Of a DNA stretch of 64,000 bases, positions 35,671 through 42,064 are shown one piece after another. The position numbers and the translations under genes were made by a program. The notes beneath the pieces were generated by a model. It did no database searches, was not told the DNA's origin, and saw nothing but the letters and a program-made list of their open reading frames with translations. Position 1 is the stretch's first letter. Each line of letters opens with the position of its first letter. The stretch spans positions 124,001 through 188,000 of IMG/VR virus record IMGVR_UViG_3300028536_000014, one strand, 5' to 3'. This DNA comes from a virus.

Positions 35671-36789
35671 TTATTCGTTATACAACTTGACCGCATTCTG
35701 AGCAAACAATTTCAGAAGCGTAATGGTAGTACCCAGGATATAAGGAGACATCACATTACGAGCTGCGATGGACCGACATCCAAAAACCGCATCGATTTCT
35801 TCACCTGCTTCTGTATAAAGTTTGTAATCCATGACTTCTGAGTTAACACTTTTCATTTGATTCGCGAAAACCACCTTATCAGCAATTCCCATATTCATGT
35901 TAACAGTGATATAGAAACGAATCTCGGCTTTATTCAAACCAAGCGGCGTTCCTTCAACACGATAATCGTCAGTCACTTCCCCAGTAAACTTGGGTTTATG
36001 GGTGCTTTTAGCTTGTTCAGAAATGAATTGATCGCTAAGATCAGCTAATTTACGGAGAGAAGAACTCATCTGTTCCTTATCACCGTGATAGAAGACCTCT
36101 ATACGATCCACAATTCCGAAATAATTGGAACGAGGAGATTGCTTAGAAAGACCTTTCAGTGTCTCAATAGCGTTCTCACCAAACGTTCCGATTTGAGATG
36201 TTATTTCATCTTCGACACTCATTAAAATGTCTTGTGGTTTAACAGTTTGAGAAGGTTTTACAACATGATGAATATTCTGTTCGAATGTCACCACAAAACT
36301 TCTCAAGTAAGTAACCCTAGTCTCAAGCTTCTCTGATAACTTTTTCGAAATAGAAGAAGCATCTTCATGAGTTTGTTTGGTTTCCCATAATACAGTTTTA
36401 GCTGTCAATGAGTTTTTCATCACAAGTTGACCAGGATTCCAAACATCATATTCGAAATAAGAAATGTTATAAGCAATGGGATCTCCCTTCTTAAAGGACT
36501 CCCCTTCCTTAACAGATGCTTCGATATCAAACGGAAAGATCGATCCTTCAGATCGACCAAACTGACGTCCTAATTCAACACCGATCATTTTACCACTTTT
36601 GTATTGAACAACAACACCTTTATCAGTTACCTTAGTAACAACACCATCCTCTTTTGCACAGTAAGCAAAAAGAGGATTTGTCCGTTGTGCAATAATCGAT
36701 TCAAATCCAGTTCTTACAAAAGGTGGGTGATATCCTTTTGCTGGAATGCCGTGACTATTCTGAATTGAGATGAAATTGATACGATTCAT
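35671..36789 (-). CDS. RNA polymerase beta subunit, exon 2 (372 codons)
   Basis: This frame continues the beta subunit from the conserved site HDD|MNRINF. It shows MNRINFISIQNSHGIPAKG followed by FVRTGFESIIAQR, equivalent to bacterial beta NRALMGANMQRQAVPLL and VGTGMExxVA; then THEDASSISKKLSEKL, equivalent to NYEDAIVISERL; and near the end ADKVVFANQ and EEIDAVFGCRSIAARNVMSPYI, equivalent to DKMAGRHGNKG and [21 protein letters not shown]. It lacks its own Shine-Dalgarno and starts exactly where the intron ends, so it is an exon rather than a separate gene. The C-terminal clamp part of beta is missing and appears as the separate gene at 57371. Spliced beta would be 1417 residues. Confidence 0.85.
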   Translation of the reverse strand: MNRINFISIQNSHGIPAKGYHPPFVRTGFESIIAQRTNPLFAYCAKEDGVVTKVTDKGVVVQYKSGKMIGVELGRQFGRSEGSIFPFDIEASVKEGESFKKGDPIAYNISYFEYDVWNPGQLVMKNSLTAKTVLWETKQTHEDASSISKKLSEKLETRVTYLRSFVVTFEQNIHHVVKPSQTVKPQDILMSVEDEITSQIGTFGENAIETLKGLSKQSPRSNYFGIVDRIEVFYHGDKEQMSSSLRKLADLSDQFISEQAKSTHKPKFTGEVTDDYRVEGTPLGLNKAEIRFYITVNMNMGIADKVVFANQMKSVNSEVMDYKLYTEAGEEIDAVFGCRSIAARNVMSPYILGTTITLLKLFAQNAVKLYNE

Positions 36790-37243
36790 CGAGAATATTC
36801 AAACAAACTCGCTAGGTCTGTTTCGCGCCATTACGCGCAGCTTTAGGTCTCCCTAAAGTCTAGGTCATATCTTCACCCACAGCTTAACCTGGTTGGGTGC
36901 TTCCCATTTCGGATCGCTTGATCCTACAGGCTGACAAAGCCCTGACCGTCGAACCTTCTCCATATCCGAAGACGTAGGAGCTTGGCTGCTGATTGTCTCT
37001 ACTCCGGGCTTTTCCAACCCTGGCTTTGTCTTTCGACTCGCAGTGGTGACCGGATTTGACGAGATGTTCCAGCAATTAAAGAAGATTCAACTGTAGATTT
37101 CTCTACAGTCGGACTATAGTACGAATAGATGTATCCATCGGGATAAACACCTTTGTTATTGTTGGTTCTAAACCCCATGTTAAGTGTGGTTTTCTTGATA
37201 TTGAATCAAGAAAAAATCAACAATAACAATTTACGTACGTTCA
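36790..37243 (-). ncRNA. Group I self-splicing intron in the RNAP beta gene
   Basis: A 454-base non-coding interval splits beta between codons for HDD (ends 37244) and MNR (starts 36789). The last exon base is T and the last intron base G, as group I introns require. On the minus strand the core elements appear in order: AATTGCTGGAACATC (P3/P4 region), AATCAGCAGCCAAGC (P6/P7 5'), GAAGGTTCGACGGTCAGGG (P7/P3'), and AAGATATGACCTAGACTT (P7 3' area and P8 side). An ACTATAGTCC element with a 10-bp hairpin lies nearer the 5' end. There is no homing endonuclease frame. An exact 5' boundary shift of a base or so cannot be excluded. Confidence 0.88.
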
Positions 37244-40200
37244 ATCGTCGTGCATTGCACCCGCTGCTAAAAGAACAGCCGAACAGTGTCGATTAGCATT
37301 TTGGACTTCCGCATCATGATTCTTAAGACCACGATGATTACGAAGATGAGGATCTGAAGAGGTATAGATATTAACACCCACATCAGAACTATCTACAGTT
37401 CCTTCAGAGATTACACCGACATCTTGAACATGAAAAGATCGAGAAGCTTTATTCATTCCATCAGAAGAACGACCGCCTTCTCCAACATAGGTTACACTTT
37501 CATCATTCTTAATGTCTTGAATCGGATTGATTTCAGGAACTAACATTACAGTTGGATCACTGTTGATAGCTGACCAGACCTTATAAGGACTGATATCAAT
37601 CTTACTTCGACCTGCTATGTTCTTACTCCGGAACTGACGAATAGCTGCCGTCATTTCTTTATAGACAGCACCAGAGAAACGTTCATATCCTCGAATACGT
37701 GTATAGGAACCATCGTATTCTTTTGGATGTTGATATGACATTAACATTTCAGTAGCTTTCAAAAGTAATCCATCGAAAGTCACTGGTTCATTCATGTCTT
37801 TTAATATTTCTTCAGTGATAGGATCGATGAAATAATCAAACAACATATCAATCTCACGAAGATAGATTGCACCTAGACCTTTACTGGTTAAGAGATTCAT
37901 GTAGATATCTTGATGTTCAAAATCCTTAACACTTGCCGATTTCGTCATCTTGGCATAATCTAAGAATCCAGCCAGTATCATTGTTGCAAAGTGATTTTTA
38001 CGAGAGAAGATATAAACACCGTCATTAAACGGAATGGGATATTCATCTGGCGTAAGATTCAATCGTTTCTTTGGTTCAACAAAACGTGGTTTGACTTCCA
38101 ATAAAGCTAGAAGTTTAGACCACCCCAATCGGTAACCTAAAATCACACCTACTGGCACATTTTTGCGAAAGATTGCTAATTCACTAAAACGAATAGGTGA
38201 GTTATGAGGATCCAAATTAAGAACTTTAAAGATATCCCCAAAAAGTTCTAATTTTCCTTCTTTTAAAATATAAAAGTCATTATTCATATCAACCCAAAGA
38301 AGTCCGTTATCCGGAGCATGTCCACACCACCGCATACCTTCTCTAGGAGATGACATCCTAATATTCTTACCGTTATCGCACATCAAAGAAAAGCCTCCTG
38401 CTTTAAAGGAGACGAAGCTTGTTGAAAGTAAACCGAAGATATAAGGTATCTTGGCATAAGAATCAAAGGTATTACCAGGTACTACATCTTTGATCCATTC
38501 ACTACCTTCAAAAGAAGCCTTATTGATTTGCTTTAAGATCCAATCAGAAGTGCTATTTGCAATTTTACTTTCCGAAGAAACAAATGCTTTTCCATAGTAG
38601 CTATTCAGAGAGACTTCGTTCGGACTGATCTTACGAATCGGTAAGTCTGCACGATTCTTTCTAAGCATATAACGGTTACCCGCTACCTTAAACGAACCGT
38701 CATGTTCAACGACTGGAAGTTTAAACCAAATTGAAGAAGCAGTACCATTGATAGGTTTCAATTGTAGATTATGAATTTCTACATTTCCCATCACGGTATG
38801 TTCTTGAGTGATCTCATGTTTTTGAATAATGACACCACCCTTCTGAAGACCACCCACCATTTTAATAACATCATTCTTCATGTGTTCATCGATGTAATCA
38901 CGAGTATAACTCTGAAGTGTACTTTGAGTCATGCTCTTATCAATGATAGTTGGATGATCGGCTAACTGTGTCTCACTTGAATGAATGATCAGTTGTTCTG
39001 GATGGATTTCAGTCTTTTGAGCTGTTAAATTACCACTACCATAAGGGTCTAACATCTTAATATAAGCATCGGCATCTTGAAGCGCTTTCTTATAAGAAGC
39101 AGCATTCAATGTTCCATCTTCTAATGCTTCGACCATTTTCTTCTTTAAGGCATTATTAGGTATTAATGCTGTATGAACTTCTTCATGAATATCTTCGTGG
39201 TTATAAACTGTCGTAGGATGAACTTCTACAACTTCGTTATCTTTTAATGAAATACCACGCTTATGAAGATCAAAACGATTCTTTTGTTCCAGAATCTCCA
39301 TATCGTCATTCAGATTCTGGATGATATTATCGCTAAGTTCATCGATTGCATCGATAGATTTCAAAGGTTCTTGAAACTTCTTTTCTATAGGGGGGGTTAT
39401 ATTCTTTTGTTGAAAACTTTCGATCGGACCTTCGTCGATGTAATCGTGTTCATCATTATGATCTTCAATCTCTTCAACAGTTTCTTCTGTCTGAGGAATA
39501 GTTTCAGCTGCATCTTCAGGAATCGCAGAAGAAATAACCAATAGGTATTTAAGTAAAGCTCTAACCATGATCTTACGATCACGTTGTAAAGATACTTTAA
39601 TCGTAGAGACGTTTTCATCACCTTTGATCCAACTATAAAAGTACGAAAGGTTCAAAGTGCTACAACGTCCATCTGCTAACATGAAAACCATGTTAATCTT
39701 CTTCAGTGCTTCAATAGGAATCAAATTGAAAACACTACGATCTCTCAACTCGTCTTTGATAAAATTAGACAAATGAAGAATCAAACGTTTCTCATGAGTA
39801 TTAAATAAACGAGCTAACGTCATACCTTCTTTATCAGAATAATTCAACAACATGTTATAACTGGGGATATTAATGATTGGATCCAAAAGAACAAAATGTT
39901 GACGATTAGATTTTAATGCCAATGCACCAATATGTGACCAGAATGTTTTCTGATAACTCTCCCATTTCTGATATTCGGAAATGGGAGTATGAACATATCG
40001 ATATGTGAATTTCAATGGATTGTAATCCACCACAATCATCGTACGTTCATCAATTTGTATGTCAGATGCTCGAGGAATATAACGAAACAGATTATGTTTC
40101 TTGATGAATGGTAGAATAAAACGTTGTGGAACAAACGGAAGTGTTCTTGGATGCCCTTCCATTAAGTCACTGTGATAAACCAGTTCTAAAGGAAGACGTT

Positions 40201-40378
40201 TGCTATATCCTTGAAAATAAGGTTTTGATGCATCTGGAAACATTTCATCATCTTGAGTGAAATGATGCAACATTGAATTACGAGGAAATCCTTTAAAGAT
40301 TTGAAGACGTGGAGATATCAGTTCGTTAAAACGACGTACTCCTGTCTCACGGTAAAATTGCGTATAAAGTTGTAACAT
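37244..40378 (-). CDS. RNA polymerase beta subunit, exon 1 (1045 codons)
   Basis: Encodes the N-terminal part of a multisubunit-type RNA polymerase beta subunit. Around residues 557-580 the sequence HDGSFKVAGNRYMLRKNRADLPI matches bacterial beta G-T/S-F-xINGxERVxVxQLxRSP. The exon ends in LLAAGAMHDD, matching the conserved FLEHDD just before NRALMG. A stop (TGA) follows at once inside the intron, so the unspliced message would give a truncated 1045-residue protein. AAGGAA precedes ATG at 40378. It follows the beta-prime fragment gene by 24 bases and matches the phiKZ gp178 slot (virion RNAP, injected with the DNA to transcribe early genes). A 190-residue acidic, low-complexity insertion lies near residues 290-450. 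Confidence 0.85.
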
Positions 40379-40401: not shown

Positions 40402-42015
40402 TTAAGAAAAGTTACCTAATACAAGATCGATGACGTCATTGCTAGAACTGAACGCAATTGATCCATCAACCGCAACGTAATAATCACGACTATTCAGGAG
40501 TTTCTTAAACTCCGCTTTTGAATCATCAATCATGTAACATGTTAATGAAGTTGTATCGCCATCATAATCACCACCAAGACGACCTAGGTGCTGACTAGCT
40601 GGACTTAACGCATCAAAGAAGTAATCTTCCATCTTTGGATATTCTGGTGCGATCACACCTGTTCTCTTCCATTCGTCATCGAGTTCGTATTTAACGAGTC
40701 CTGTAACTGTACTTTTTAAATAGTTGTAACTAGGATAAATACTTCCAAATCCAGTTACAGGATATCGAGTGATTGTACCGGGTGTTTCAGGTGCTATTTG
40801 AAAGACAGATAAATAGAAGAGTTCGGCATAAGTGATTGGATGAACATGTTCTTTCTTAAGGTTAACAGGAAGTTCATCGATGTTTGTAAGAAACCGATAA
40901 GTGTTATCTGGTCCATTATAAATCAAACCTAGATAATAACCACTAATCATAATTGATTCATGACGTAGATCTTTGACTTTAAAACGATGGAACTGTTTTT
41001 CCAGTCCATCATTCGTCATCCAGTCATCATAGAAACTTGGATCGATATTGACATTCACTGACTTAAGAGTTTTAGTAGAAATTAAGTTTGCTGGTGCATT
41101 TGGCCCTACAAAGATCTTTGATAGATATCCATCACGAACGAGCTGAACTGCTTTCGGAAAGATTGATCGAAGAAATTGATACAGACCTACAACATGTTGA
41201 GTCGCTGATACAAACTGCGGATCATCTCGATGTTTGACATTCTGAATATAAGGAGTGATGACATTTCGAGTTGAATTATCGATATGTCGAGCAACCCACT
41301 TTCCTTGGATCAGTTTACCTTTACCTTCCAGGATGTTAGTAATGTAATCGTAAATCTGATTCACAGCGATTTGAAGATTATATCGCATGTTATTCAAATA
41401 TTCTTCATTACTAGTAATAGAGACATTCTCGATCACATTGGAGAGTCCAATTACTTTTCGATAAAGATTATTAATCTCATCTTCAGTAGGCTTTCCATTG
41501 TCATCAATTGTGTAATCTCGAAGACCTGCAGGAAGTACTAGCAATTTATCAAATAAAGGATTCTTGCGGTACTTCTCTACCAGTTTAATATTAAACGATC
41601 GTTTTGCAGAATCACGTTCAGTAAATTTCAAAACTGGAAAGTGATCTAAGAAGAATTTATAACCTGTTTCTCCATTGATCGGATCAGACTTTATAAAATC
41701 TTTAATTTGATGATCAAAGGTTGCGTATTCACGGCCAGAAATGATCTGGCCGTATAGTTCTTTAAGATCAGTAATTGCTTTGAAATAGACTGGATGAAAG
41801 ATTGGAATTTGAAGATTAACATATCCAAAGTTTCTTGAACGACGAGCATCTCCTACTTTACCAAAAGTTTCAGTAGAGTAAAGACCGTCTGGATGAAAGT
41901 TTTTGGTCATACCGGACGTAATGTCCATAACCGATATTCGTCTTAAATTCTTAACGCTTTCATTACCTGATAACAAAAGAAGCTCGATGTTAAAGGGTGG
42001 AAAGTTCTCTAGCAT
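40402..42015 (-). CDS. RNA polymerase beta-prime subunit, N-terminal half
   Basis: 537 residues from ATG 42015, which has AAAGGA eight bases upstream; an in-frame GTG at 42042 would add nine residues. The catalytic signature NADFDGD appears as GGDYDGDTTS, with the three metal-binding Asp at about 483, 485 and 487. Earlier, DGLYSTETFGKVGDARRSRNFGYVNLQIPIFHP matches the beta-prime N-terminal DGLFCxxIFGP...GHIELAxPVxH, and KGKLIQGKWVARHIDNSTRNVITPYI matches KGKxGRFRxNLLGKRVDYSGRSVI. The zinc-binding Cys set seen in bacteria between these is absent. The chain stops just after the active site, so the C-terminal half must be another gene outside this window, as in phiKZ (gp180 plus gp80). It heads the long minus-strand operon. 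Confidence 0.87.
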   Translation of the reverse strand: MLENFPPFNIELLLLSGNESVKNLRRISVMDITSGMTKNFHPDGLYSTETFGKVGDARRSRNFGYVNLQIPIFHPVYFKAITDLKELYGQIISGREYATFDHQIKDFIKSDPINGETGYKFFLDHFPVLKFTERDSAKRSFNIKLVEKYRKNPLFDKLLVLPAGLRDYTIDDNGKPTEDEINNLYRKVIGLSNVIENVSITSNEEYLNNMRYNLQIAVNQIYDYITNILEGKGKLIQGKWVARHIDNSTRNVITPYIQNVKHRDDPQFVSATQHVVGLYQFLRSIFPKAVQLVRDGYLSKIFVGPNAPANLISTKTLKSVNVNIDPSFYDDWMTNDGLEKQFHRFKVKDLRHESIMISGYYLGLIYNGPDNTYRFLTNIDELPVNLKKEHVHPITYAELFYLSVFQIAPETPGTITRYPVTGFGSIYPSYNYLKSTVTGLVKYELDDEWKRTGVIAPEYPKMEDYFFDALSPASQHLGRLGGDYDGDTTSLTCYMIDDSKAEFKKLLNSRDYYVAVDGSIAFSSSNDVIDLVLGNFS

Positions 42016-42064
42016 GTTTGTGATCCTTTGATGGTTGTTCACCCTTTACTAGGGATAAATTTTA

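Follow-up and report, generated by a model that had tools for sequence, protein, structure and literature searches.

The virion RNA polymerase (RNAP) beta gene of phage phiPA3 carries a putative group I intron right after two conserved aspartates, and this intron carries the HNH endonuclease gp210 (Birkholz et al. 2024, PMC11620839). In vitro, gp210 nicks the intronless sequence and likewise the gp178 gene of phiKZ, and it gives phiPA3 an advantage over phiKZ (PMC11620839). In the public record of 201phi2-1, gp273/274 appears as a join of two pieces; it was identified by mass spectrometry and is described as "interrupted by a mobile ...". The site is already known, and the intron described here is an added occupant that has lost its endonuclease. 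Nucleus-forming phages have an intron hotspot at this site, and for one occupant, that of phiPA3 with gp210, a competitive benefit to its phage has been demonstrated.

We analysed a 64-kb stretch of viral DNA (hereafter, the window), taken from a virus record of 244,725 bases (positions 124001-188000). The initial annotation had reported a group I intron in a beta gene; the documented occupancy in phiPA3, the interrupted annotation in 201phi2-1 and the endonuclease relic reported below were absent from that account. We consider it highly probable (roughly 93%) that the beta gene of this chimallivirus-type jumbo phage contains a once-mobile group I intron, which would have lost its endonuclease by internal deletion and would still splice. 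Splicing in vivo, past mobility and current immobility are what we infer from the sequence. A homologue of phiKZ's nuclear shell protein is encoded at G000:C1:116389-117591 (minus strand; 26% identity, E 2e-16), which places the phage with the nucleus-forming phages.

Insertion point in the virion RNAP beta gene

In tblastn, the two exon parts align side by side on a single unbroken gene in many jumbo phages, including phiKZ gp178, in agreement with the gp178-type beta gene named in the initial annotation. The gp180-like gene followed by the beta gene reproduces the gp180-gp178 order of phiKZ. In phiKZ, the two tblastn matches are spaced by six bases because two codons are unaligned. When both exons were placed on each genome, the insert at the junction was 0 nt in phiKZ, 0 nt in GXNNE2 and 454 nt in the window; the intron coordinates are therefore exact, and the boundaries first proposed hold against these insertion-free beta genes. 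Exact excision of the 454 nt restores the gene that is uninterrupted in these relatives (phiKZ gp178, GXNNE2).

The last codons of exon 1 are CAC GAC GAT (HDD), ending at 37244, and exon 2 begins with ATG AAT CGT (MNR, in MNRINF) from 36789. The junction had been drawn between HDD and NR; it does lie directly after HDD, but the next codon is the M of MNR. The intron sequence begins with TGAACG and ends with ATTCTCG. Its first codon is an in-frame TGA, as had been noted, and the open reading frame of 1045 codons (40378..37241, minus strand) stops directly after HDD. Translation of unspliced RNA would therefore terminate at once. The coordinates are collected in Table 1.

Table 1. Features of the interrupted beta gene and its intron (positions in the window).
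Feature	Position	Strand	Evidence
RNAP beta'-type neighbour (gp180-like), just upstream, same direction	40402..42042	-	PF04997, E 1e-7, under the family's curated cutoff
Exon 1, virion RNAP beta gene (1045 codons, end HDD)	37244..40378	-	ORF and tblastn to phiKZ gp178 and relatives, 100% of length
Group I intron, 454 nt; 5' splice after GAT, 3' end G	36790..37243	-	Rfam match; boundaries from interrupted and uninterrupted homologues
12-bp perfect inverted repeat, P1 loop	37153..37229 (arms 37229-37218 and 37164-37153)	-	sequence, fold
C-terminus relic of gp210-type HNH homing endonuclease (intron nt 39-137, third frame)	37107..37205	-	tblastn; HMM
Catalytic core, full model 1-253 of RF00028	36841..37130	-	Rfam match
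Internal guide UAGUC	37112..37116	-	fold; pairs with exon GAU|UG (37246-37242) as P1, U.G at 5' splice site
P7 5' strand GGUCA	36943..36947	-	pairs with UGACC
P7 3' strand UGACC	36863..36867	-	pairs with GGUCA
Exon 2, virion RNAP beta gene (372 codons, start MNR)	35671..36789	-	ORF and tblastn

Group I core and splice-site pairing

A covariance-model search matched RF00028 (Intron_gpI) with 60.4 bits and an E-value of 7.5e-13 (37130..36841, minus strand), above the Rfam gathering score of 50, which confirms the proposed 454-base group I intron. It was the only Rfam match within the 64-kb window. The guide lies just before the P2 hairpin, and AGUCC or GGUCC precedes P2 at the same place in most same-site introns. 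In the fold of the 5' region, the P1 pairing is extended by GUACG/CGUAC. Exon 1 ends in U and the intron ends in G; the initial annotation had called both bases correctly, and the exon U forms the U.G pair of P1. P1 comprises only 5 contiguous pairs, and across introns the match of each 5' end to its own guide is only modestly better than with permuted partners, with 96 of 5000 permutations reaching the score. GUUAUUG near the 5' end was also considered as the guide and was dropped, since AGUCC before P2 fits the fold and most same-site introns. We saw no convincing P10 in the window intron.

P7 reads GGUCA/UGACC, where most of the other introns in the comparison have GACUA/UAGUC. The two differ on both sides in three pairs, and all five pairs of the window intron are standard, including the retained G264-C311 pair of P7 (Tetrahymena position numbers). 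Such double-sided changes with pairing kept would be expected under selection on the ribozyme. A pattern scan found the variant P7 in 30 IMG/VR stretches, which rules it out as a unique feature. Two short hairpins can be drawn by eye between P7 and P3, at the place of the IA2 extra hairpins P7.1 and P7.2.

The intactness of this core bears on whether the element has decayed and no longer splices, so that beta would be made as two polypeptides, the second starting from the ATG at 36789. Exon 2 does happen to start with ATG, and in the records of EL and phiPA3 the junction separates two annotated beta proteins. However, the ribozyme core is intact at the level of the family model and P7 is fully paired, the first exon 2 codons are part of a motif that runs unbroken in phiKZ and GXNNE2, and the 201phi2-1 record joins both parts. 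In other phages with an insert at this site, exon 2 opens with CCG, CCA or GTC, and the ATG is therefore not a general feature. We regard a split beta subunit as extremely improbable. According to the splicing model that we prefer, the transcript would fold so that exon GAU pairs with GUC of the internal guide, with the U.G pair at the splice site; two-step self-splicing, initiated by guanosine, would then join HDD to MNR and yield a 1418-aa beta subunit.

Elsewhere in the genome, outside the window, a second group I intron of 340 nt (G000:C1:112493-112832) scores 59.5 bits, above the Rfam cutoff, and is without an endonuclease. It splits a non-virion beta'-type RNAP gene within the catalytic motif, NAD|FDGD. 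The phiKZ gp55/gp56/gp56.1 intron appears to split the NADFDGD motif six nt earlier (N|ADFDGD), gp56.1 being part of the second exon. A third candidate (C1:77299-77571) was rejected as an intron: its 24.5 bits are below the cutoff, it has no R element, and a tRNA-Leu and a free-standing HNH gene are close by.

An endonuclease relic in the P1 loop

The window intron contains no intact HNH endonuclease; its longest open reading frame spans 63 aa and is without a Pfam match. Its third frame, however, retains about 33 codons (FNIKKTTLNMGFRTNNNKGVYPDGYIYSYYSPT) that match residues 291-330 of the 330 residues of phiPA3 gp210 with an E-value of 5e-8 and 35.0 bits in tblastn; among 1000 shuffled introns, the best score was 28.5. 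The 2050HW endonuclease matches over residues 298-326 of 328 (tblastn, E 5e-6). An HMM of 12 same-site-type endonuclease C-termini gives the relic 30.1 bits, while the best of 6000 shuffled frames reached 9.6. The relic sits between the 5' splice site and the guide, which is the place of gp210 in phiPA3, and similar partial relics are present in two IMG/VR loci, L055 and L126. The relic in the window intron is newly seen.

Could the intron never have had an endonuclease, the peptide match being due to chance or to conserved RNA structure? The match runs at its end into the P1 3' strand and the first part of P2, and the short peptide alone, searched against all phage records, has phiPA3 gp210 as its sole match with an E-value of only 0.3. 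This explanation nevertheless seems very unlikely to us, as the relic scores far above the shuffled controls, corresponds to the C-terminus of same-site intron endonucleases at the same position within the intron, and has counterparts in L055 and L126. We therefore favor past mobility: the intron was probably a homing element when it reached this gene, with a gp210-type HNH endonuclease encoded in its P1 loop, and a later internal deletion would have removed the endonuclease save for the C-terminal codons. The intron would therefore be unable to home by itself.

A free-standing HNH endonuclease gene of 287 aa lies beside tRNA-Leu in the same genome (L010:1835-2698, minus strand; G000:C1 about 77.8-78.7 kb). 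Its presence raises the idea that the intron is still mobile through a nuclease encoded elsewhere, acting on the intronless site. The 287-aa protein showed no match to the relic above shuffled controls, and its gene is far from the beta gene, next to the tRNA; we consider mobility in trans unlikely.

The P1 loop also contains a perfect 12-bp inverted repeat (TTGTTATTGTTG / CAACAATAACAA), one arm of which is within the endonuclease relic.

Occupancy of the site and comparison with known introns

A scan of IMG/VR with an alignment-based query yielded 80 loci, some of which are reference phages or near-copies; a single exon 2 protein as the query found no IMG/VR loci. The gene is uninterrupted in 57 of the 80 loci, 14 have an insert at the site of the window intron, and 9 have one at a second site about 11 nt downstream. 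Rfam Intron_gpI exceeded its cutoff in 13 of the 14 same-site loci, phiPA3 and 201phi2-1 among the 13 being scored on their GenBank copies. A long intact open reading frame with a gp210-like C-terminus is present in eight of these 14 loci and absent from the other six. The intron core tree was mostly without resolution and did not place the origin of the window intron. A single clade of all same-site introns was mildly rejected (p-AU 0.023, from few columns and with long branches), suggesting repeated invasion.

The downstream site, after DDxKRV, is represented by L053, L070, L083-L085, L092, L096, L105, L124 and L020-L022, and some of the endonucleases there have a gp210-type C-terminus. In L081:2510-4007, two group I introns, one per neighbouring site, seem to enclose a micro-exon that spans about 11 nt and holds the PKRV codons.

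The window intron, the relics in L055 and L126, the intact introns and the EL/GXNNE2 pair together cover, at one site, most of the steps that a homing cycle should pass through, from invasion and decay of the endonuclease to the bare intron and the empty site. It is thus testable whether bare introns are mere leftovers or are kept for protection. We tentatively suggest, while holding it to be rather doubtful, that an intron without endonuclease may be kept as a passive shield, whose splitting of the target would let the essential beta gene resist gp210-type nucleases of co-infecting phages. If this is true, a disarmed selfish intron acts in phage-phage competition at a hotspot.

The GAT| site is occupied in phiPA3 (1352 nt), 201phi2-1 (336 nt), 2050HW (1371 nt), HPP-Temi (about 348 nt) and EL (415 nt). 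Rfam supports a group I assignment for the first four inserts. The EL insert did not reach the Rfam cutoff, and group I core elements are present in it in order.

The phiKZ gp71-73 intron is likewise a group I intron in an RNAP gene of a phiKZ-type phage; however, that gene is the non-virion one, the site is another, and gp72 lies inside the intron. The EL gp186/gp187 insert shares the site of the window intron and is without an endonuclease, but by its core it falls with the phiKp_32 intron at the downstream site. EL and its close relative GXNNE2, 97.7% identical over the beta gene, differ there by precisely this insert; they are a natural intron-plus/intron-minus pair usable for experiments. 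The 201phi2-1 gp273/274 intron is at the same site without an intact endonuclease; in contrast to the window intron, it has another core sequence and seems by eye to have nothing left of a phiPA3-like endonuclease tail but its last codons. The HPP-Temi beta intron, at the same site and also without an endonuclease, has the top core identity to the window intron (66-67%), but a relic is not detectable in its P1 loop. The phiPA3 gp211/gp210/gp209 intron is longer than the window intron and has an intact HNH gene of 330 aa, of which the window intron keeps only the tail. It shares with the window intron the gene, the GAT| insertion point to the base, the CTCG end and the group I core, and the C-terminus of its gp210 matches the window relic.
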